The translations under genes were made by a program, and so were the position numbers. Source: Chthoniobacteraceae bacterium (GTDB lineage: Bacteria > Verrucomicrobiota > Verrucomicrobiia > Chthoniobacterales > Chthoniobacteraceae). From it: a stretch of 40,363 bases of DNA. The DNA is taken from contig CANJNZ010000041.1 of assembly GCA_947476045.1 (NCBI GenBank), positions 1-40,363 of the forward strand, given 5' to 3'. How positions within the stretch are numbered: position 1 is the stretch's first letter; every line of letters begins with the position of its first letter. Positions 2,212 to 36,654 of this stretch are shown piece after piece. The notes under the pieces were generated by a model, which ran no database searches, was not told the DNA's origin, and saw only the letters and a list, made by a program, of their open reading frames with translations.

Positions 2212-3105
2212 ATGCGGTGGTTCTGGCATGAAGGACGTATCGCACAGCACGACTCCGATTATCAGCTTCTCGACAGCGGCGGGTTTCAGAAACTCGAACG
2301 CTTCGGCGACATCGTGCTTGCGCGTCCTTGCGCGCAGGCGGTGTGGCAGGCTTCGCAGCCCGGCGTGTGGCGTGCGGCGACGGCGACTTTCTCACGCGAA
2401 AATGGCAATCGCTGGGAAGGTCGCGAGCGTTTGCCGGCGACATGGATCATCGCGGTGGAGGGTGTAAAATTTCAGCTCAGCTCGACGGATTTCGGGCATC
2501 TCGGGATTTTCCCCGAGCAGCGCGACCAATGGCGGCGCATCGCGGAGGACTGTGCTGCTTTTCATAAACGCCACGGACGCCCGGCGCGGGTGCTAAATCT
2601 TTTCGCCTACTCCGGCGGCAGCACGCTCGCCGCTGCGTGCGCTGGCGCGGAGGTCTGCCACGTGGATGCGTCGAAAGGAATGGTCGAGTGGGCGCGCAAA
2701 AATGCCGCGCTGAACGGACTTCAGGAAAAGCCCGTCCGCTGGATCGTGGACGACGTGACGAAATTCCTCGAACGCGAACTGCGCCGGGGCCAGCGCTACG
2801 ACCTGCTCATCCTCGACCCGCCGAGCTACGGGCGCGGCGCGAAGGGGGAGGTTTTCAAAATCGAGCACCACTTACCGAATCTGCTCTCGTTGCTCGCGAA
2901 GTTGTTTTCCACGGAGCCGCTGGGCGTCCTCATTTCCTGTCACACGCCGGAGCTGACACCCATTTCGCTGCATCATCTTATGCAGCAGGCATTCGGGGAA
3001 AACGGCACGCTCGAACACGGCGAAATGCTACTGCGCGGCGATGCCGATGTTCTGCCCGTTCCGAGCGGAAGCTTCTGCCGCTGGACATCCAAGACGGCAG
3101 CGTGA
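2212..3105 (+). CDS. RlmI/RlmK-like class I SAM-dependent methyltransferase
   Basis: A 297-residue protein with a Rossmann methyltransferase core. SAM motif I is LNLFAYSGG (about residues 128-136), followed by the acidic VDASKGMVEWARKN strand/helix (151-164) and the catalytic motif DPPSYGRG (202-209). This pattern belongs to the COG1092 family of 23S rRNA cytosine-5 methyltransferases (RlmI) and relatives; the N-terminal PUA domain of RlmI is not evident. The likely substrate is rRNA, acting in the cytoplasm. The ATG at 2212 lies 35 bp after the preceding stop. The 5' end could lie a little further in, because no clear Shine-Dalgarno sequence precedes it. Confidence 0.85.
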   Translation: MRWFWHEGRIAQHDSDYQLLDSGGFQKLERFGDIVLARPCAQAVWQASQPGVWRAATATFSRENGNRWEGRERLPATWIIAVEGVKFQLSSTDFGHLGIFPEQRDQWRRIAEDCAAFHKRHGRPARVLNLFAYSGGSTLAAACAGAEVCHVDASKGMVEWARKNAALNGLQEKPVRWIVDDVTKFLERELRRGQRYDLLILDPPSYGRGAKGEVFKIEHHLPNLLSLLAKLFSTEPLGVLISCHTPELTPISLHHLMQQAFGENGTLEHGEMLLRGDADVLPVPSGSFCRWTSKTAA

Positions 3106-3154
3106 CGCCCTGTCGCGCGGTTGTGCCAGGAGGAACCAGTTTGTTGGAAACCTA

Positions 3155-3259
3155 CTAGGCTTTCGCCTTCGTAGTTTTCTTTGCAGCCTGCAAGCGGTCG
3201 TTTTTCACACGACGCGCTTTGCGTTTCTTGACGTTGTCTTTGCCTTTGCAGTTACCCAT
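3155..3259 (-). CDS. 34-residue lysine/arginine-rich mini-protein
   Basis: An ATG at 3257-3259 on the minus strand opens a 34-codon frame ending in TAG at 3155-3157. It starts MGNCKGKDNVKKRKARR and ends in KKTTKAKA. Fourteen of 34 residues are Lys or Arg, and there is one Cys (C4). It sits in the otherwise empty gap between the methyltransferase and the surface protein at 3314, in the same direction as the latter. The strong compositional bias looks like a small nucleic-acid-binding or ribosome-associated protein, but I do not recognise the family. No clear ribosome binding site is visible. The very short length is the main doubt. Confidence 0.5.
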   Translation of the reverse strand: MGNCKGKDNVKKRKARRVKNDRLQAAKKTTKAKA

Positions 3260-3313
3260 GCGGGCGAACAAACCGGTATTGCGAGTGAATGCCAAGAGGA
3301 TTCGCCCGGGAGT

Positions 3314-4894
3314 TTAGATATTCTTTTGCACGACTTTTGTCTGGTAGTTGCCTGTCGCGCCGAGGTGCAGCACATCGGTTTCTGCGCCGCCATCTATGAG
3401 GATGGTTGCAATGGCGTTGAGCGTGGTGTTGGCGACGGCTCCGCTGAGGTCAAACGTGTCCACACCTCCGCCACCAAGAAGCGTGAGTGGCGCGTTCACC
3501 TGCGTAAGGCCCGTGGGGTTCGTCCCGCTTTCGATGCCAAACTGATCGGCGCCAGCCCCGAGATCTATTGTCGCGGCAGCGAGGAAAAGTGTGTCGTCTG
3601 CGCCAAAGTAATCGCCGCCTTTAGTGCCGGTGATTTTGACTGTGCCTTGAGCGATGACCTTGAGCAGGCTCAGCGTGGAATCGGCGTTCTTTGTCGTTAC
3701 GGTTACGGCTCCCACGTGCAGTGGGTCTGCGGCATTGAGAACCGTGCCGAGGAAGAAGTATCCGCTCAGTTCTGCGCCAGCGAGTGCGACTTTCACCGCG
3801 CCGCCGATGGAGCCGGACAGTTCCGCAGCTACGGATGTGAATCCATTGACGTTCAGCCCGCCGACAATCGATCCGAATGTCACGTCGAGGATGTCGAACT
3901 CGGAATCAAGGCTCTTCGTTGTCGCGGAAAGCGAACCGCCGATGTGTAATGTAGTGGGTGAGCCCATCGTCGGGGCTCCCAGTTCGACCGAGCCAAAGTT
4001 GTCGGTGCCGCCACTGGTGAATTTTGCAGCGCCGCCGATGAAGATCGTTCCGGCACTGAGGATCACCTGGTCGGGCCTCCCTGTTTTTATATCCATCAAA
4101 ACAGCACCGCCGATGAACACGTTCGCGCCATTGAGTTTTTGGTCGGTGCGATTTCCTGCGAGGCCGCCGCTCTTGAGCGTTGCGGCGCCGCCGACATCAA
4201 GACGTCCTGTGACAACGAAGCCCGCTTCGTCATCACCTGTGCCGGTGGTAAGGCCAAGCTTACCGAGAATCTGCACATCCTTCCCGGCCATCAGAAAGTC
4301 GTCGGCGCCTTTGCCCGATGTGGCGATGAAGTCTCCGCCCACGTGCAGCAGCGCGGTGGTGGTGTTGTTCAAGAGATTCGTGCCTTCGCCGAGCGCGATA
4401 TTCACGCCCCCGAAGACTCTTGTGGTTGCGCCGGAAAAGGTGACAGTGTCCGCACCCGTGCCGCCTTTTACAGTCAGCTTTGCACCGAGTGTGGCAGCGT
4501 CGAGTGTCAGCGCATTCGAGCCGATGCCCAGATCCACAGTGGTCGCTCCGGGCAGGAAGCCGCTGATGGTGATTTGATCATTCCCTGCGCCGAGCTTCGC
4601 GGTGAAAGCGCCGATGAAGCCGGGCGCAACAGCCTGATCTCCGACTGGGAGCAGTGTGCCGTTGAAGCGAATTTGAGTATTCGCGTCCGAAGGATCCACG
4701 TGCAGCGCGCCACTGGAATCCATTGTGATTGAGACAGAGTTATCTCCGGGGTTGGCAGTTTCCTCTGTGAGAAGCGCTCCGGTTTTCCCGAGCGTGAGAC
4801 TGAGTATGACGGCGGGGGCGATGCGGGATTCGAGGATTTCGATCATGGCTTTGTGGTTCTTTTGGTGATTTTTATATCGCGATGCCGACTTCAT
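3314..4894 (-). CDS. Repeat-rich exported protein with N-terminal LESRIAPA motif
   Basis: A 526-residue Gly/Thr/Ala-rich protein. Close to its N-terminus is IEILESRIAPAV, the short LExRxAPA-type motif seen at the start of many large extracellular proteins of planctomycetes and verrucomicrobia. The body has scattered G-x-G-x-D turns (GAGNDQI, GTGADTV, GKGADDF, GTGDDEA, GAGADQF) reminiscent of RTX-like calcium-binding turns, alternating with beta-strand-like stretches. With the ATG at 4894 it overlaps the upstream paralogous gene by 23 bp. The ATG at 4846 (MIEILESR) is an equally good start and would avoid the overlap. Probably co-transcribed with the gene at 4872-6561. Surface location is inferred; function unknown. 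Confidence 0.8.
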   Translation of the reverse strand: MKSASRYKNHQKNHKAMIEILESRIAPAVILSLTLGKTGALLTEETANPGDNSVSITMDSSGALHVDPSDANTQIRFNGTLLPVGDQAVAPGFIGAFTAKLGAGNDQITISGFLPGATTVDLGIGSNALTLDAATLGAKLTVKGGTGADTVTFSGATTRVFGGVNIALGEGTNLLNNTTTALLHVGGDFIATSGKGADDFLMAGKDVQILGKLGLTTGTGDDEAGFVVTGRLDVGGAATLKSGGLAGNRTDQKLNGANVFIGGAVLMDIKTGRPDQVILSAGTIFIGGAAKFTSGGTDNFGSVELGAPTMGSPTTLHIGGSLSATTKSLDSEFDILDVTFGSIVGGLNVNGFTSVAAELSGSIGGAVKVALAGAELSGYFFLGTVLNAADPLHVGAVTVTTKNADSTLSLLKVIAQGTVKITGTKGGDYFGADDTLFLAAATIDLGAGADQFGIESGTNPTGLTQVNAPLTLLGGGGVDTFDLSGAVANTTLNAIATILIDGGAETDVLHLGATGNYQTKVVQKNI

Positions 4895-22673: not shown

Positions 22674-23378
22674 CTACATCGCCGGTTCGTCCCACGACTT
22701 TGAGAGTCGTGCGGTAGGCACTGCGGGGATGGCGTTGCCGGCCTCGGTGTAGTGCGACGTGTCGTTGAACAGCGTGAGGCGCGCGCGCACCGGGTCTTTG
22801 AAATCCACGATGTTCAGCGCGCAGGGATTTTGGTCGAGGTTGTCCCGGTAACGGCGCGGGTCAAAACCGAGCAGCGAGCTGAGCAGCAGACGGATCGTCG
22901 CTTTATGCGAAACCACGAGAACGTTGCCGCCGGGATGTGCGCGCACGATGTCCATGAGCACTGGGAGCGCGCGCGCCGTCACCGCGAGTCCGCTTTCACC
23001 GCCCTCGGGCGCAAACGTATATGGATCCTTGTCCCACGCCGCCGATTCCTGCGGCCACTTTGATTCCACCTCGCGCCGCGTCATCTGCTCCCAGCGTCCG
23101 TGCGAAATTTCCTTCAGCCCGTCACGCACGACGATGTCGAGCCCGTGCGGTTCGGCGATGATGCGCGCCGTTTCCTGCGTGCGCCCGAGAGTCGATGCAT
23201 ACACCGCCGACAACTTCTCCCTGCCCAACCGGCCAGCGAGCCGCCGTGCCTGCTCGCGACCTTCATCGGAAAGCGGAACATCGGTCGCGCCAGCGAAGCG
23301 ATCTTCAGCGGTGAGTATGGTCGCACCATGGCGGACGAGGAAAATGCGTGTCGAGGATGTGCTCATGGGGTAATGCAT
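22674..23378 (-). CDS. Histidine phosphatase family protein (phosphoglycerate mutase-like)
   Basis: A 234-residue protein with the branch-1 histidine phosphatase motif FLVRHGAT near residue 13, carrying the nucleophilic His. TLGRTQETA follows, as do the acid/base region LKEISHGRWE and the second His in VVSHKATIRLLL. Such proteins are phosphatases of small metabolites (alpha-ribazole phosphate, sugar phosphates) or mutases; which one cannot be decided. The ATG at 23366 (MSTSSTRIF) is an alternative start four codons in. Operon with the DadA-like oxidoreductase, with a gap of 6 bp. Confidence 0.9.
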   Translation of the reverse strand: MHYPMSTSSTRIFLVRHGATILTAEDRFAGATDVPLSDEGREQARRLAGRLGREKLSAVYASTLGRTQETARIIAEPHGLDIVVRDGLKEISHGRWEQMTRREVESKWPQESAAWDKDPYTFAPEGGESGLAVTARALPVLMDIVRAHPGGNVLVVSHKATIRLLLSSLLGFDPRRYRDNLDQNPCALNIVDFKDPVRARLTLFNDTSHYTEAGNAIPAVPTARLSKSWDEPAM

Positions 23379-23696
23379 AGCCGGTCATTGCCGTGGGTGC
23401 CAGTCTGACGTAATTAAGTGCGGTGATAAATCGCAAAGAATTGCGGTTGTTATGGTAACGCAAAGATTTCCCCCCGAGTCTATCTTTAGAGTCGATAGTA
23501 GTAGGAGAAGGTATCGTAAATGCTGATTGCAGGGTTGGAGTATTATCTAGCAATGCAAACAACGATTTCACCTACAACTGATCTGCCGCGCGCATCTGTG
23601 TATGACGCAGGACTCAGTTGCAGGGTGGAGAACATGTCGCTTGTCGCACTCGGCACGCGAAAAATATGTCATTCAAAGCTTTCGAGGAATAGCACC
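23379..23696. other. Leader region of the prepilin cluster, no gene
   Basis: A 318-bp stretch between the divergent phosphatase gene and the first prepilin, more AT-rich than average. It must contain both promoters. An open frame runs through its last 177 bp into the prepilin, but it lacks coding character before the leader peptide. A GAGGA Shine-Dalgarno sequence at 23684-23688 precedes the ATG at 23697 by 8 bases. No convincing sigma-54 site or riboswitch was found. Confidence 0.55.
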
Positions 23697-24203
23697 ATGC
23701 GCTCTTTGGATTCAAAGCGGAGCAGGGCTGGTATGGCGCTTCTCGAGGTCCTGATTGCGGCGGCGTCCATCGCTTTGTTTATGTCGGGGCTTTTTGCGAT
23801 GAATAGTTTCAGCCTCAAGACGGTTCGCGCCGGCAAGGAAACCGTCGCAGCCAGCTTGATTCTGCAAGAAAGGCTGGATCAGTTGCGCCGGGGTTCCTGG
23901 GTGAATGTGACCGACCCGGCCTACGTCCAGGCTGTGATGGGCACTGCGGCGGGCGCAGCAGCTCCTCTATCGGGGCTGGTCGAGCGGATTACCATCAACA
24001 CCTATCCCACGCCCGCGCCAACGCCGATTCATGTCACCCGTTGGGCGAGTGGAATTGCGTCGGTGGACTCTACAAATCCAGCGCTCAGGCAGGAGTCCAT
24101 GGTGCGGGCAGATATCACTGCGACCTGGGTCGCCAGTCGCAACGGGGAGACACGGACCCGAACCATATCGACTGTGATTGCGCAGGGAGGGATCGTTAAA
24201 TGA
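23697..24203 (+). CDS. Type IV prepilin-like protein (PilV/GspI type)
   Basis: A 168-residue protein starting at the ATG at 23697 behind GAGGA. It has a class III (prepilin) leader: RSRAG followed by MALLEVLIAAASIALFMSGLF, with cleavage after Gly12 and Glu17 at mature position 5. The leader phenylalanine is replaced by Met, which is common in minor pilins. The remainder is a small periplasmic domain rich in Thr/Ala. It is the first of three translationally coupled genes (4-bp ATGA overlap with the next). It is likely a minor pilin or pseudopilin of a type IV pilus or type II secretion system. No pilus ATPase, PilC or PilQ is in the window. Confidence 0.85.
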   Translation: MRSLDSKRSRAGMALLEVLIAAASIALFMSGLFAMNSFSLKTVRAGKETVAASLILQERLDQLRRGSWVNVTDPAYVQAVMGTAAGAAAPLSGLVERITINTYPTPAPTPIHVTRWASGIASVDSTNPALRQESMVRADITATWVASRNGETRTRTISTVIAQGGIVK

Positions 24204-24775
24204 AAGCAATTCCCCATACAAGCCGGTGCGCTGGATTTACCTTGCTCGAAATCATGGTGGCGGCAGCGGTTTACTCCATACTCTTTGCCGTGCTGGCAGG
24301 TGGCGTGATCGCTTTGCAACGCGCATTCAATGGGTCTGAAAAATATTCCCGTTCAGTGAGCAATCAGTTGCGGATCCTCGATTATGTAGCCCGGGATGTC
24401 CGTCGCTCGTCTGCGGTTGCGATTACACAAAGTTCCACGCGGCTTACTCTCTCACTGCCGGATCAATATCTGAGCGCGGCGCCCAGTCGTGAATTTCGAA
24501 CTCCCGCTGTCTCAATGACGGCAGTCACCTATGGGGCGACTCCAGGCACCGTCGCTTATTACATCAGCGGCTCAAATTGCATCCGCGAAGAGAACGGCGT
24601 GGCAGTGGTGATCGCCACGGATGTGGAAGATTTTCAGATCACATTTGATAACTCGGACTCTTCCGGAAAGGTCGTCGCCACGACCCTTACATTTTCGCCA
24701 AAATATCAAATGAGAGAGACAGCGGATGCCCGGAGCGGCACCACGCTCACCAGCAGGGCCACACTTCGCAAATGA
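24200..24775 (+). CDS. Type IV prepilin-like protein (PilW/GspJ type)
   Basis: A 191-residue protein with a canonical prepilin leader: RCAG followed by FTLLEIMVAAAVYSILFAVLA, cleavage after Gly12, Glu at +5. The C-terminal part matches the pattern of minor pilins such as PilW/GspJ: an RILDYVARDVRRSS helix after the membrane segment, then a beta-rich domain with YYISGSNCIREENG and a FQITFDNSD stretch. The ATG overlaps the preceding stop (ATGA), and its own stop overlaps the next ATG in the same way. Probably a minor subunit of the same pilus or pseudopilus. Confidence 0.87.
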   Translation: MKAIPHTSRCAGFTLLEIMVAAAVYSILFAVLAGGVIALQRAFNGSEKYSRSVSNQLRILDYVARDVRRSSAVAITQSSTRLTLSLPDQYLSAAPSREFRTPAVSMTAVTYGATPGTVAYYISGSNCIREENGVAVVIATDVEDFQITFDNSDSSGKVVATTLTFSPKYQMRETADARSGTTLTSRATLRK

Positions 24776-25797
24776 TCACTACGCACGTCCGCCCTTTGTC
24801 CGCCCGGAAATTTCACGCCAAGCGCGGTGGCGCACTGCTCCTCGCCCTGGGAATTATTACGATCCTTTCGCTTGTGGCGGCCAATGTCTGCCGAGTCACC
24901 ACCCAGCGACAGCGCGCATGTTTTCAGGAGACCAGTTGGGGAGAGTCGCTCGCGGCTGCGGAGGCGGGTGCTGATATTGCCATCGCAACGCTTCGTTCGG
25001 GCGCATGGACCGGATGGTCGGCCCCGGATGGGAATGGTGTGCGCACTTACCAGACTCCCGTGCTGACCCACGATGGCGAGGGCAACACGAGCTTCTTTGC
25101 CATCGTCAAAGTGGATGCGCCAGCCCCCCTGCAAACCATGGATGGCGCTTTTTACCGCATACGGTCCACTGGCACAGCACTGCTCTCCGGCGGGTCCGGG
25201 ACCATCGGACAGGACAAACTCAACAACAGCCTCTGGAAGCTCAGCCTCAAAACCAACCGCGACACCGGCGCAGCCGTCAGCGGTGCAGGGCTGGTCTCCC
25301 GCACCATCGAAGTGATTGCAAGGCCGAGCGTGCTTTTTCCCCGTGCGATCACACTCACCAATTCCATCAATGCAAATACCGCCGGTGCGAGTATCGATAG
25401 CTTTGATTCTCAAGATGCGACAAAATCCACAAACGGCGAGTTTGACATCGCCAAGCGGCAGTCCAACGCAAAGGTCGGCACTCTCGATGGCACAGGCTCG
25501 AACATGAATGGGCTGCAGATTTATGGAGACCTGATGTATTCCGGCCCTGCGATCTTGGGCACGGGCGGCGTCACAGGGCAGATTATCACGCCATTTTACG
25601 AAACAGTGCCCCCGGTGGAAAAGCCGGTCTGGACGACAGTGAATGGCTCCTACGGAATTGCAACCGGGCCCATCAATCTTGTAAGCGGCCCATTGGGTGC
25701 GCCAACTCGATACAAGATGTCCAGCATCGCATACAACAGTGGGGCCGACGTCATGACGCTCCTGCCGCCAGCGCCCGGGGCCTGCAAGGAGAGATAG
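24772..25797 (+). CDS. PilX/GspK-like protein, 5' part of a frameshifted gene
   Basis: 341 codons from the ATGA overlap to an early TAG at 25795. The N-terminus has a basic stretch and one hydrophobic helix (KRGGALLLALGIITILSLVAA, about 18-38) without the Glu5 of typical pilins, as in PilX/GspK-type proteins. The next region (SWGESLAAAEAGADIAIATLRSG) is the usual helix after the membrane anchor in this group. The frame breaks near the G4 tract at 25777-25780: adding one G would read APGGLQGEIEIWVTG and continue for at least another 140 codons. So the stop is probably a sequencing error or a recent mutation. Confidence 0.8.
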   Translation: MITTHVRPLSARKFHAKRGGALLLALGIITILSLVAANVCRVTTQRQRACFQETSWGESLAAAEAGADIAIATLRSGAWTGWSAPDGNGVRTYQTPVLTHDGEGNTSFFAIVKVDAPAPLQTMDGAFYRIRSTGTALLSGGSGTIGQDKLNNSLWKLSLKTNRDTGAAVSGAGLVSRTIEVIARPSVLFPRAITLTNSINANTAGASIDSFDSQDATKSTNGEFDIAKRQSNAKVGTLDGTGSNMNGLQIYGDLMYSGPAILGTGGVTGQIITPFYETVPPVEKPVWTTVNGSYGIATGPINLVSGPLGAPTRYKMSSIAYNSGADVMTLLPPAPGACKER

Positions 25798-26573
25798 AGA
25801 TTTGGGTTACCGGCAGTGTCGCCATTTCCGGTTCCTCACAGGTCATTTCGCAGTCGGGTGTAAAAGTGACGGTCTATGTCGAGGGCGATGTCTCCGCCAC
25901 AGGAAGCGGTGTTGTGAACCAGAGCAAGACAGCCGCGAATTTCATCATCAAAGGAGTGACGCCGACCGACGCTTCGGCACGCACTTACAGCCTCACTGGC
26001 TCTGCGGATTTTACTGCTGCGATTTATGCACCTGCATACGACATCACGCTTGGCGGCAACGGGACTTATTCGGGTGCATTTGTGGGGAAAACATTGAGCG
26101 TCACAGGTGGTTCCGCTGCGATTCATTACGATGAAGCCCTGAGCCGTTCCGGGGGCGGAGGTCAATACACGGTCGCAGCCTGGTGCGAAGACGTGAGGCA
26201 GGCCGGGCTCCAGTGGGTCAGTTCAGCGTGTGACTTCCGTTTTGCGGGAGAGGATGGAGACATTCATCACCATCAGATTCCGGGAGGGATTGTTCACGTC
26301 CTTGCGGATTTCCACATCCAGCACGCGGATGGATGGGTCGTTCTTTTCAATTTCCGGGATAGCGAGGCAGGTGGCGCGAAATCCCTTCGAGGATTTTTCC
26401 ACCGGCATTTCCACCGCCCAGTAGGTTCTTTCAAAATCCGGCAGATCTGGTTCGTCGAGCGCCGTGTTCAGGCGGGTGACAGCCCCGGAGAGGCCCAGAA
26501 TTCCAAAGTGTTTTTTCATCCGCTCCGGAAACCAAACCATGGGAGAGCCCTGCGGAATATTGCTCAGAATTAA
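25782..26573 (+). pseudogene. 3' part of the PilX/GspK-like gene, shifted frame
   Basis: This frame continues the PilX-like gene: LQGEIEIWVTGSVAISGSSQ, then DVSATGSGVVNQ, an IYAPAYDITLGGNGTYSGAFVGKTL block and IHYDEALSR. These are all typical of the polymer-like C-terminal domain of verrucomicrobial PilX-type proteins. The recognisable part ends around 26200 (QYTVAAWCEDVR). Beyond this the frame runs 350 bp antisense through the convergent PilO-like gene, which is not credible as protein; the original stop has probably been lost or another small indel is present. Confidence 0.6.
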
Positions 26574-26804
26574 ATGAAGCTCGCCGCTTGCTTTGTTAGT
26601 GCCTTGCTCCAGCGCCCAAGTTTCAGAAATCGTTTTTTGCGCACCCTCGATGCGTTCCTTTAACAACGTAATCTCACGCTGGGACTCCACTGCCATTTTA
26701 CCAAGAGGCGTGATCATGCGGCCGTAAACCTGCCAGCCAGCGAGCAGCGCGAGGCCGCAGGCAAGCACCGCACCACGCCGCATCCATTTTTCTCCGGGTT
26801 CCAT
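26223..26804 (-). CDS. PilO-like pilus assembly protein
   Basis: A 193-residue protein. A short cytoplasmic N-terminus is followed by a membrane helix (GAVLACGLALLAGWQVYG, about 11-28), then a heptad-like coiled coil (33-62) and a periplasmic alpha/beta domain with VSILSRKTEV at the end. This matches PilO/GspM architecture: single-pass, N-in, part of the inner-membrane alignment complex with PilN. It starts 2 bp after the stop of the receiver-PilN fusion gene. The two are therefore co-transcribed and are expected to form a heterodimer. It converges on the pilin genes. The family call rests on architecture and context, not on a strong motif. Confidence 0.7.
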   Translation of the reverse strand: MEPGEKWMRRGAVLACGLALLAGWQVYGRMITPLGKMAVESQREITLLKERIEGAQKTISETWALEQGTNKASGELHLILSNIPQGSPMVWFPERMKKHFGILGLSGAVTRLNTALDEPDLPDFERTYWAVEMPVEKSSKGFRATCLAIPEIEKNDPSIRVLDVEIRKDVNNPSRNLMVMNVSILSRKTEVTR

Positions 26805-26806
26805 GG

Positions 26807-28057
26807 TCAGCGTCCCTCCTTTCCATCGCCCGCCGGCGCCTCGTGGGGGCCGATTTGGGCAGTCATAGTAAAGTTGGCCCGTCCTTGTTCCGGCGTCGCC
26901 CCGGGCTTGTCTTCGATTTGCTCAAAACGAGTGGTCACCGGCCGCCCTTTCGCGATTTCCCTCAAATTCTCCTCTGCCTTCTGCCGGAATTGATCCGCGT
27001 GGAACCGGGACTCCTTTCCGCTGGCCACGCCAGAGAGGCGCACCTCGCAAAAACTTGAATCCTGATTTTTGCCACGAGCCCGGACCTCAAACAGTTCGAT
27101 CCTCGCATCTGCCGCCGCCAGAATGCTGTTCAGCGCCGGAGTCCAGCGGGACTTTGTCCGCTCCGCTTTAATCCGGCCCGCTTGATTTTGTTTCAATTCA
27201 AGCTTTGAGCGAATCGAGAGAGCCTTCTCGAGATTTGCCGATATCGCCGTCCATTCCTCTTCGCACGACTTGCGCTCCGCAGTCAGGGCAGCGGCTCGAT
27301 CCCGCGCATTGGAGTATCGGCTCCAAAGTCCCACCGAAAGAGCGAAAAGGAAAGTAAACGCCACCAGCATGAATGCCCTCAAACCGACGCCCTTGCGAAT
27401 CTGCGGCTCTTCCTCCGGGAGAGGGAGGGCGTCCCGCACCTCACCCTTTTCATTGGTGTGGCTCGAAAAGAATCTGGCGGCCGACACAGCCTTCTGAAAA
27501 CTGTCTCCCGGCTTGAAAGTTCCCGCGCCGCCCGGGCTGGTAGGCGAGTTGTCAAACACGCTGTGAAATGTGCGACGCACCTCAGTCAGGGCGATCGAGT
27601 CCAGCATTTTATCCAACGGAAACGGTTTCCGCAGCACGAAGCCATTGACGCTCTTGATGAAATCGTTTGTGCGCGCATCGTTTTGATGGCCTGTCATGAA
27701 AATGAACGCTTGGCAGAGAGCCGGGTGTATTCTTTCCACTGCGCGGTAAAACATGTCACCTGGCAGCCCCGGCATCATGATATCGCAAAGCACCGTCTTG
27801 AAATCGCTGGCCAGAACTTCGCGCACACCTTCACCGCCATTTTGGACAGCCACCACATCATAACCTTTCTCGACCAGGCAGTCCTTGATGACCTCACAGA
27901 ACGATACGTCGTCTTCGAGCAGTAAAATCCGTCCTTTTTTTGTAGTGCTGGGATTTACAGCCGGGGCGGGCGGTTTTCCCCCGTCATCTGGGCGCGGTGC
28001 AGCCAGCTCTGAACTCACATTATCTGAAGCTGGATTTTCGATGCATTCTTTCACCAC
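26807..28057 (-). CDS. Receiver domain - transmembrane helix - PilN-like fusion protein
   Basis: A 416-residue protein. Residues about 42-160 form a response-regulator receiver domain: RILLLEDD with acidic pair Asp49/Asp50, phospho-acceptor Asp92 in VLCDIMMPG, Thr122 (IFMTGHQ) and Lys144 (LRKPF). After a linker there is one membrane helix (RAFMLVAFTFLFALSVGLW, about 227-245). A coiled coil and a periplasmic domain follow (SRWTPALNSILAAADARIEL, FCEVRLSGVASGKES) with the strand order of PilN/GspL proteins. Topology would place the receiver in the cytoplasm where PilN normally offers its PilM-binding peptide. No histidine kinase is adjacent. Co-transcribed with the PilO-like gene. I infer phosphorylation-dependent control of pilus or secretion assembly. 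Confidence 0.85.
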   Translation of the reverse strand: MVKECIENPASDNVSSELAAPRPDDGGKPPAPAVNPSTTKKGRILLLEDDVSFCEVIKDCLVEKGYDVVAVQNGGEGVREVLASDFKTVLCDIMMPGLPGDMFYRAVERIHPALCQAFIFMTGHQNDARTNDFIKSVNGFVLRKPFPLDKMLDSIALTEVRRTFHSVFDNSPTSPGGAGTFKPGDSFQKAVSAARFFSSHTNEKGEVRDALPLPEEEPQIRKGVGLRAFMLVAFTFLFALSVGLWSRYSNARDRAAALTAERKSCEEEWTAISANLEKALSIRSKLELKQNQAGRIKAERTKSRWTPALNSILAAADARIELFEVRARGKNQDSSFCEVRLSGVASGKESRFHADQFRQKAEENLREIAKGRPVTTRFEQIEDKPGATPEQGRANFTMTAQIGPHEAPAGDGKEGR

Positions 28058-31622: not shown

Positions 31623-33569
31623 ATGGGCCTGACCACCCAGACATACGACATCATCACCCGCCTCGCGGTCGGGAACGGCGCGATTGTGTATCGTGCTGTC
31701 GAAAAGGATACGATGCGGCAGGTCGCGTTGAAATTACTCACGCAGGAAGGCGATGTGGATCACCGGCTGGATCTGGATGCGCTTTTTACCGACGAGGCCT
31801 GGCTTCGTTCGATTGATGGCACGCATGTCTGCCGTCTGCTTACCGCTTACTCCGACGACGACGGCCCGGTGCTCGCCTATGAATACGCCCCCGGCATGAA
31901 CGGTGCGGAACTCCCGCTCCAAAAACCGCTCGACGCCACGCAGGCTCTCGACGTCGCCGCGCAACTCATAAGCGCGCTCCGCAGTGGCGAGCGCCAGCGT
32001 TGCCCGCATGGCGATCTGAAACCGTCGAACATCGTCTTTGTGGATTTGCCCGGCGGGCGCCCCTACGTGTTTGTGTTGGATTGGGGTCTCGCTGCGTATC
32101 GGCAGACGACGCCGGATGACTCGCTGAACTACTTCGCGCCGGAGATGCTTGCGGGCGATCCTCCTTCGCACCGGGCGGATCTTTTTTCAGCGGGAGCTGT
32201 GCTTTTTTACCTCTACACGGGGAAGTTGCTCGTCGTCGGGACGGACCGGCAGCAGATCATGGATGCGTGGCAGGATGTCCGCCCCGAGATGCTCGCCGAG
32301 TTGAGACCCGACCTTTCGTCCAAGCTCGTCGAATGGGTGTGCGGACTCCTCGCGCTCGATCCATTGCAAAGGCCCGCGTCCGCAGTCGAGGCGGGTGCCG
32401 CACTCGCACAACTCGGCCCGCCGCCGCCGATGGTGCCACCGGAAGTCATCCGCCCACGCCCGGTGCCAAAGCCAGCGCCAGCTCCGGTGCCGCCAGTCCA
32501 CAGACCCTCGTCTGTCGTGCCGCCGCCGTATGCATCGGGCATCCGCGCTTCCGCTGCGATGGATGATGCGATCATCGCGCCGGTTCCGCGCATTCCACCG
32601 GTTGTTCAAAAGCCAAGTTCGCTCCCGACGATTTTGATCTACGCCATGCTGGTCATCGTTGTGGTCGGCGGCATGTGGTGGGCGCTCACTCGGAAGCCGG
32701 ACACCGCCGCACAGGAGCCAGCGGTGGAAAATCCCAGCGCAACTCCGCGCCCACCGTCTCCATCGGTGCCACAGCCGCCCGCGCCTGCGCCGGTGAAGGT
32801 CGCAGTCCCGGACGGTGCTCCCATTGTGCTCAAGGCCAATGGGCCGATCATCGCCGAGGAATCTTTCACTTACCGGGATGGGCAAAACATTAAGGGAAAG
32901 GCCGGAGGCAAAGGATGGGATGCACCTTGGCAGGGACTCGAAGCTAAAATCGAGAACGGTTCACTTTCCTACCTCAATCACCCTGCGAGCGGTGGCACGC
33001 TCTTTATCCCGGGACAAGGGCCTCCGATCGTGCTGACACGCCCGGTCGGTCCATCTGCGCGTTTCATTCCCGATCCGGCGAAAGCCGGGCACTGGTATAT
33101 GAGTATGCTCATTCACCACATGAGCAGTTCACCCGCGCCGGGCGGCGAGATATTAATCAACCCGATCAGCCTCGGAGACGTGAACAATTTCGTCCACATA
33201 TCCGTGGGGGAAAAAAGCGGCGTATTGCACGTCGGTCTCAACGACGACGCGCACAAGGTCGAGCTGCCACAGGACGGCAAGCCGATCTACCTCATCCTCC
33301 GCATTGATTTGAAAAACCCGATGTCCGGAAAATACGACATCAAGGGAACGCTCTGGATCAACCCCGATCTCGGTTCAGCGAAACCCGACAAAACCGGCCA
33401 GAGGCTCGAAGTGGAATTGAAAAGCCAGAGCGTCCCTCAACAATTCGGCCTGCACGTGCGAAAGAGGATCGGCAAGAGCGATACCCGAATTGACGAAGTG
33501 CGTTTCGCCCGTCGCATGGCCGACATGGTTTTCAAACCAGTCGTCGAGGAAGAGGAAGTCGGGCCGTAG
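31623..33569 (+). CDS. Transmembrane serine/threonine protein kinase with extracellular domain
   Basis: A 648-residue protein. The kinase domain (about 7-260) has a glycine-rich loop LAVGNGAIVYRA, Lys37 in VALKLL and catalytic loop HGDLKPSN (129-136), where the usual HRD Arg is Gly. The metal-binding motif is DWG (153-155) instead of DFG, with APE at 172-174. The catalytic Asp, Lys and Asn are present, so it may be active; HGD marks it as non-RD. A proline-rich linker (266-332) leads to a membrane helix (about 335-355). A 290-residue outside domain with GKGWDAPWQG and beta-rich sequence suggests a LamG/concanavalin-like fold. Its stop is 2 bp from the convergent RsgA stop. Ligand and substrates unknown. 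Confidence 0.9.
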   Translation: MGLTTQTYDIITRLAVGNGAIVYRAVEKDTMRQVALKLLTQEGDVDHRLDLDALFTDEAWLRSIDGTHVCRLLTAYSDDDGPVLAYEYAPGMNGAELPLQKPLDATQALDVAAQLISALRSGERQRCPHGDLKPSNIVFVDLPGGRPYVFVLDWGLAAYRQTTPDDSLNYFAPEMLAGDPPSHRADLFSAGAVLFYLYTGKLLVVGTDRQQIMDAWQDVRPEMLAELRPDLSSKLVEWVCGLLALDPLQRPASAVEAGAALAQLGPPPPMVPPEVIRPRPVPKPAPAPVPPVHRPSSVVPPPYASGIRASAAMDDAIIAPVPRIPPVVQKPSSLPTILIYAMLVIVVVGGMWWALTRKPDTAAQEPAVENPSATPRPPSPSVPQPPAPAPVKVAVPDGAPIVLKANGPIIAEESFTYRDGQNIKGKAGGKGWDAPWQGLEAKIENGSLSYLNHPASGGTLFIPGQGPPIVLTRPVGPSARFIPDPAKAGHWYMSMLIHHMSSSPAPGGEILINPISLGDVNNFVHISVGEKSGVLHVGLNDDAHKVELPQDGKPIYLILRIDLKNPMSGKYDIKGTLWINPDLGSAKPDKTGQRLEVELKSQSVPQQFGLHVRKRIGKSDTRIDEVRFARRMADMVFKPVVEEEEVGP

Positions 33570-35930: not shown

Positions 35931-36070
35931 TCGCTGTGCTTCGCGGGGAAATAGGAGCAAGATTTTTGCTCCATTTCACATTATGCCATCCATCGCGGGG
36001 CGGGTGGCTTTTAAGTTTGGTGGGCAAGCCGGGCGTTGACGGTGCGAGCGGCATCGGGCATCGTGTGCGT

Positions 36071-36289
36071 ATGAACTGGCGCGAACGCATTACGAGCGAA
36101 CCCGGGATTCTCCGTGGCAAGCCTTGCATCAAGGGAACACGCATTCCGGTCGCGCTCATCCTCGGATACGTGGCGAGCGGGAAAGATGCGGTGGAGATCG
36201 CCCGTGAGTTTCCCGATGTGACTGCGGAGGACGTGGAAGCCTGCCTGCACTACGCCCGCGATCTGGCGGACTACGAAGCGGCGGCATGA
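36071..36289 (+). CDS. DUF433 antitoxin-like protein
   Basis: A 72-residue protein from the ATG at 36071. It matches DUF433, a small winged-helix family: ITSEPGILRGKPCIKGTRIPVALIL, GKDAVEIAREFPDVTAEDVEACLHYA. DUF433 proteins are commonly encoded directly before a PIN-like toxin, as here, with a 4-bp ATGA overlap. It would neutralise the partner and probably repress the operon. A promoter is expected in the 140 bp upstream, but none stands out. Confidence 0.9.
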   Translation: MNWRERITSEPGILRGKPCIKGTRIPVALILGYVASGKDAVEIAREFPDVTAEDVEACLHYARDLADYEAAA

Positions 36290-36654
36290 GCCTGCTATTT
36301 CTCGGCGACCAATGCGTGCCCGCCAGCATCACGGACGCGCTTCGTGATGCCGGGCATCGAGTTCTCCTGTTACGCGAAGTTCTTCCTATCCGTGCTCTCG
36401 ATCCCATCGTGCTGGCGAAGGCTCGTGAACTCGACGCGATCCTCGTTTCACTCAACGGGGATTTTTCGGACATCGTGGCATATCCGCCCGCAGAGCACGG
36501 TGGCATTATCTCCATTCAGCTTCACAACCACCCCGAAATCATCCCGCAACTCGTGGCCGTCTTGCTTGAATTTCTTCGAGGGAACCCGGTGCGCGATTTC
36601 TACCGGGGAAAGCTGCTGCTGGTGGAGGTGCATCGCATTCGCATCCGGGGCTGA
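36286..36654 (+). CDS. DUF5615 PIN-like toxin
   Basis: A 122-residue protein of the DUF5615 (Mut7-C/PIN-like) family. The N-terminal LFLGDQCVPASITDALRDAGH has the conserved Asp of the PIN-like core (Asp8, where D-x-N/C is typical). An acidic/polar second site follows in ILVSLNGDFSDI (N/D-x-D), then GGIISIQLHNH and a C-terminal VEVHRIRIR. These are predicted RNases paired with DUF433 antitoxins. In many members the first motif is L-D-x-N and the second T-x-D-x-D; here they read G-D-Q-C and S-L-N-G-D, so catalytic competence is uncertain. Translationally coupled to the DUF433 gene. Confidence 0.87.
   Translation: MSLLFLGDQCVPASITDALRDAGHRVLLLREVLPIRALDPIVLAKARELDAILVSLNGDFSDIVAYPPAEHGGIISIQLHNHPEIIPQLVAVLLEFLRGNPVRDFYRGKLLLVEVHRIRIRG

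Follow-up and report, generated by a model that had tools for sequence, protein, structure and literature searches.

A lineage-restricted fusion of a CheY-like receiver domain to a PilN-like membrane protein in a genus of the Chthoniobacteraceae

In type IV pili the cytoplasmic tail of PilN binds PilM (PMC3724824). The locus described here raises the question of what it means when a receiver domain precedes the membrane helix of a PilN-like protein, and whether a histidine kinase could in this way gate the assembly of a pilus or secretion machine without transcription. The gene lies on a stretch of 40,363 nucleotides from a Chthoniobacteraceae bacterium, hereafter the window. The genome holding the window is termed G000, and the other genomes of the genus that carry the fusion are G002, G003 and G008. 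The gene and its parts are as follows:

26807..28057, minus strand: REC-TM-PilN' fusion gene, 416 aa, GTG start
27590..27934, minus strand: CheY-like receiver, residues 42-156 (Pfam PF00072 and alignment with response regulators of the genus)
27392..27589, minus strand: variable linker, residues 157-222 (14-30% identity to orthologues)
27320..27388, minus strand: single membrane helix, about residues 224-246 (hydropathy peak)
26810..27319, minus strand: periplasmic coiled coil and PilN-like domain (motifs common to canonical PilN)

The receiver is recognized by the Pfam model Response_reg (PF00072) at residues 44-155 with an E-value of 1.1e-12 and 48.6 bits, the curated cut-off being 30.2. Residue alignment confirmed the phospho-acceptor D92 together with T122 and K144, as given in the initial annotation. 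The "DD" named there is present as D49-D50, but the metal-binding acidic pair by position is E48/D49, which D50 follows. A linker of approximately 67 residues connects the receiver to the membrane, and the anticipated single membrane helix was recovered as the only hydrophobic peak above 1.5 (KD 2.1, residues ~224-242). The remaining ~170 residues comprise a coiled-coil-like stretch and a C-terminal domain of about 100 residues.

The C-terminal part of the fusion yielded no direct match to the Pfam or NCBIfam models of PilN, including PF05137. The canonical PilN encoded beside PilM in the same genome likewise lacks a PF05137 match, and since the models also miss this bona fide PilN, their failure is no evidence against a PilN identity of the fusion. 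When relatives were searched with the C-terminal part, the matches (E-values to 1e-12) were the other fusions and proteins of 200-250 aa, and those of the latter that were inspected in their context are encoded by pilN genes located directly 3' of pilM and 5' of pilO. Moreover, hhalign of three fusions against 11 canonical PilNs gave a probability of 97.6 and an E-value of 4.4e-12, and both groups have the motifs W-x-P and G-x-A-x-G...R...A...R in common. Among structures in the PDB, the joint PilN profile matched best to PilN of Myxococcus xanthus (3jc8, E 0.002); this match is weak and covers mainly the N-terminal half of the profile, and hence lends weak support to the PilN identity. The profile-profile comparison with canonical PilN rules out an unrelated C-terminal fold, and the PilN/GspL-like periplasmic domain proposed from the sequence is thus upheld by profile homology to PilNs encoded beside PilM.

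The fusion is present in four of the ten genomes sampled from the genus. Its recurrence in three further genomes besides G000 argues against chance as well as artefact, and an assembly artefact is ruled out by the occurrence of the fusion with the same neighbours in independent genomes. Outside the genus, searches of 40 genomes from the family, 213 from the order and a sample of 286 from the class did not recover the fusion. One scan of public genomes returned no fusion, and another returned the contigs of G008 and G003 and otherwise unrelated receivers. A search of 383 genomes of the phylum with the Pfam PilN model retrieved mostly open frames of 400-590 aa, which is the length of a GspL-like PilM-PilN chain and from which fusions are not separable. 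Three candidates with long frames were inspected and rejected: an ordinary PilN preceded by an open frame (G047, L029), a PilN with a PDZ-like insert (G042, L174) and a further ordinary PilN (G102, L175). The second of these (L174, G042:C21, 3247-4176) is in itself of note as a canonical-type PilN of 309 aa with an apparent PDZ domain within its periplasmic part, flanked by pilM and pilO. Taken together, this is a real, lineage-restricted domain fusion; within the genomes searched it recurs in one genus and not across Verrucomicrobia at large. We found no earlier report of a receiver built into PilN in the open-licence literature, to which our search was limited, and cannot exclude one elsewhere.

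Nearly every complete canonical PilN found in the order starts with M-x-L-x-[IL]-N-[LF]-x-H-E, whereas this motif is absent from all fusions. At the level of sequence, the receiver of the fusion occupies the place of the PilM-binding tail of PilN, and the tail motif has been lost.

Immediately downstream of the fusion gene we located its putative partner, in accordance with the initial annotation:

26223..26804, minus strand: pilO', PilO-like partner of 193 aa, 2 bp 3' of the fusion gene (hhalign)

Alignment of three PilO' proteins with nine canonical PilOs by hhalign resulted in a probability of 99.6 and an E-value of 1.1e-23, and pilO' adjoins the fusion in G008 and G002 as well. Neither pilM nor pilP nor pilQ is present at the fusion locus. 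The absence of pilM had been noted before; the gene occurs twice elsewhere in the same genome, on the contigs C2 and C9. Contig C2 carries pilM-pilN-pilO and a PilP-like gene, and contig C9 (L039, 5012-11517) encodes a PilM-PilN chain of 594 aa together with a PilO-like protein, one additional protein and a TPR-containing secretin. In addition, four full-length PilB/GspE-type ATPases are encoded elsewhere in G000. Just upstream of the C9 pil locus (2894-3607, minus strand) we observed a gene for a protein combining an excisionase-like HTH with a receiver. Because the genome retains PilM and standard PilN and PilO, pilN' and pilO' of the window are an extra, diverged pair of paralogues and not an ordinary machine with a switch added. 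In trees, the PilN' proteins cluster in a single clade and so do the PilO' proteins (100/100), on long branches apart from the canonical proteins of the genus. This topology is consistent with joint divergence of the two, while the long branches leave the depth of the duplication uncertain.

The pair faces a cassette of minor-pilin genes tail to tail, an arrangement found in G000, G008 and G002 with conserved gene order:

23520..24203, plus strand: PilV/GspI-like minor pseudopilin (weak TIGR02523/TIGR01707 matches; position in the cassette)
24200..24775, plus strand: PilW-like minor pseudopilin with N-methylation motif (PF07963, E 1.2e-5; TIGR02532)
24772..26198, plus strand: PilX-like gene with C-terminal DUF7305 (77 bits), frame broken near 25785

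The true start of the PilV/GspI-like gene is probably near 23697 (MRSLDSKRSRAG...). The intact PilX-like protein of G008 aligned by tblastn to frame +1 and then to frame +3 of the window. In the second part, which extends to 26573, the stop of the orthologue is missing and the frame continues antisense to pilO'; the break reflects either an error of the draft assembly or a decaying gene. A DUF7305 pseudopilin is encoded in all four genomes with the fusion, and among the six without it a single match at cut-off level was obtained (G009). The window's PilV- and PilW-like genes show weak similarity to the Verru_Chthon cassette (TIGR02598/TIGR02599), but they score far below the curated cut-offs for the Verru_Chthon B and C proteins (14.8 vs 51.4 and 13.8 vs 256.5 bits, respectively).

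Several other genes of the window deserve mention. Beside the pilVWX cassette lies a histidine-phosphatase gene (22674-23378, minus strand), whose orthologue in G017 (L045, 8506-9183, minus strand) is located directly 3' of a canonical pil operon, possibly as a relic of synteny. Positions 31623-33569 (plus strand) encode a Ser/Thr protein kinase domain followed by a membrane segment; the C-terminal domain of this protein has no strong match in Pfam. Two overlapping small open reading frames (35936-36289 and 36286-36654, plus strand) have by eye the look of a toxin-antitoxin pair of DUF433 and a PIN-like (DUF5615-type) protein.

The resemblance of these components to type II secretion proteins raises the alternative that the pair belongs to a secretion-like pseudopilus, with GspL/GspM-like subunits and a GspI/J/K-like cassette, and that the receiver gates secretion and not a pilus. 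The only Pfam match of PilO' is indeed T2SSM/GspM (PF04612), a weak one below the cut-off (14.2 vs 27.8), and the minor pseudopilins match GspI and PilV with equally weak scores. Moreover, GspL, itself a fusion of PilM and PilN, sets an example of a PilN-like protein that carries a cytoplasmic domain (PMC3724824). However, all family matches of this kind fall below the cut-offs, and the closest relatives of the pair reside within pilM-pilN-pilO operons. We regard this alternative as very improbable, bearing in mind that type IV pilus and type II secretion systems are not distinguishable by these proteins alone.

The receivers of the fusions are most closely related to single-domain response regulators that occur throughout the genus (55-60% identity), and they group with them in the tree. 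The nearest protein there, support being weak in this region of the tree, is encoded on contig C6 of G000 (L003, 1492-2163, minus strand); it comprises 223 aa with the receiver at its C-terminal end, shares 55% identity and sits on a short branch. It also has an N-terminal extension, and is a possible donor or partner of the fusion receiver. Comparison of G000 with G008 shows the receiver to be the best-conserved part of the fusion: it is 77% identical, the periplasmic core 48% and the linker 30%, a pattern indicative of purifying selection acting on the receiver.

This conservation bears on the question of whether the locus is a decaying relic, in which pilN'-pilO' with its captured receiver has little or no function and the other machines of the genome do the work. 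In G003 (L043, G003:C514, 7068-9010) the fusion breaks off after about residue 309, continuing into the convergent pilW, and the locus has lost the remainder of pilN' together with pilO' and its pilX; this genome contains three other DUF7305 cassettes, none with an adjacent REC-PilN. Such truncation, the frameshifted pilX of the window, the patchy presence in four of ten species, and the intact pilM-pilN-pilO genes on C2 and pilM(N)-PilO-secretin genes on C9 would all fit decay. On the other hand, open frames of 416-516 aa and the partner genes have been kept in three divergent species in conserved order, the 77% identity of the receiver between G000 and G008 implies that it is under purifying selection, and a frameshift in a draft MAG may stem from misassembly. 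We therefore consider a mere relic improbable. Still, the truncated fusion of G003 and the broken pilX of the window make the system look dispensable.

The full active site of the receiver is preserved in three of the four homologues, namely in the window protein, G008 and G003. In G002, D49 is replaced by S and T122 by L, while the PilN part is intact; its receiver shares 43% and its periplasmic core 46% identity. Since this fusion persists despite the loss of both residues, phosphorylation does not seem to be indispensable to it. The proposal of a switch domain at the PilM-binding position stands as to the position, with the receiver in place and the tail motif gone; the proposed gating by phosphorylation may hold, but has apparently been lost in G002. 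In the majority of lineages the receiver is probably a working switch, whereas in one it has decayed although the fusion itself was retained, and a phospho-switch is plausible for the fusion though not universal. The linked histidine kinase genes suggested at the outset were not found in any of the flanks inspected, whether in the window or at the loci of the relatives.

These observations could also be accommodated if the receiver were a phosphorylation-independent docking module, a pseudo-receiver that, in the place of PilM, brings a partner to PilN' or positions it there. FrzS, whose pseudo-receiver lacks the phosphorylation residues, binds SgmX and controls type IVa pili (PMC11580455). The degenerate receiver retained together with PilN' in G002 and the lack of a kinase linked to the locus are in line with such a role, and a long linker fits docking better than allostery. 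Conversely, the full active site in three of four homologues and the strong conservation of the receiver between G000 and G008 speak against it, and the long branch of the G002 receiver (1.85) looks like relaxation rather than an ancestral state. We thus judge a phosphorylation-independent docking module to be rather unlikely. The linker argues in a further respect: given that it is long and fast-evolving, a rigid allosteric signal is unlikely to pass through the membrane helix, and a more natural mechanism would be self-association in response to phosphorylation, or the docking of a partner in the cytoplasm.

The explanation that we favour, with confidence evenly divided, is a lineage-specific PilN'-PilO' pair that serves the pseudopilin cassette and in which a tethered receiver under phospho-control has replaced PilM docking. 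A duplicated pilN-pilO pair would have diverged into a dedicated inner-membrane subcomplex for the accessory PilV/W/X-like cassette with its tip-like DUF7305 domain. PilN' would have lost the short PilM-docking tail and gained a CheY-like receiver akin to the single-domain response regulators of the genus, while, judging from homology, it may still pair with PilO' through the periplasmic coiled coil and the C-terminal domain. The receiver would hang in the cytoplasm on a flexible linker, where an unlinked kinase could phosphorylate it. Phosphorylation would most likely alter self-association or the docking of a cytoplasmic partner, candidates being the assembly ATPase, the platform or a PilM-like adaptor, and assembly would thereby be permitted or blocked at the PilN'-PilO' subcomplex. 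Against this explanation, the pilVWX genes are convergent and lie outside the transcription unit of the fusion. The residues lost from the G002 receiver, the lack of a histidine kinase in the flanks, the signs of dispensability in G003 and in the window, and the DUF7305 cassettes of G003 that have no REC-PilN beside them weigh against it as well. More tentatively still, with some doubt prevailing, we propose that an alignment-complex subunit equipped with a phospho-receiver where the PilM-docking tail would otherwise be would allow a histidine kinase to control assembly at the machine itself, bypassing both transcription and PilM.

If this holds true, a receiver within PilN at the PilM-binding spot would constitute a direct input into the alignment complex, and the fusion would represent a natural experiment on the role of PilM docking. 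The degraded receiver of G002 would provide an evolutionary contrast, given that the fusion apparently persists there without phosphorylation.

Like the PilMNOP alignment complex, the fusion locus encodes PilN-like and PilO-like bitopic proteins in tandem; unlike it, the PilN-like protein has a large N-terminal receiver and linker instead of the INL-x-HE tail, and pilM, pilP and pilQ are not part of the locus. In type II secretion, GspL has an architecture like that of the fusion, with a globular domain in the cytoplasm, a single membrane helix and a periplasmic domain of the PilN type, but its cytoplasmic domain is PilM/actin-like, whereas that of the fusion matches Response_reg alone in Pfam. 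What is known of signal input into the central parts of pilus and type II secretion machines mostly concerns soluble CheY-like proteins, c-di-GMP binders or effects on the ATPases. PilG, PilH and similar pilus regulators, which exert non-transcriptional control of pili, are stand-alone, diffusible, single-domain CheY-like proteins; in contrast, the receiver of the fusion is covalently part of a structural subunit. FrzS of M. xanthus, composed of a receiver and a coiled coil, likewise exemplifies a receiver acting on a pilus machine without DNA binding, as proposed for the fusion, but it is soluble, its receiver lacks the phosphorylation residues, and it is not a component of the machine (PMC11580455).
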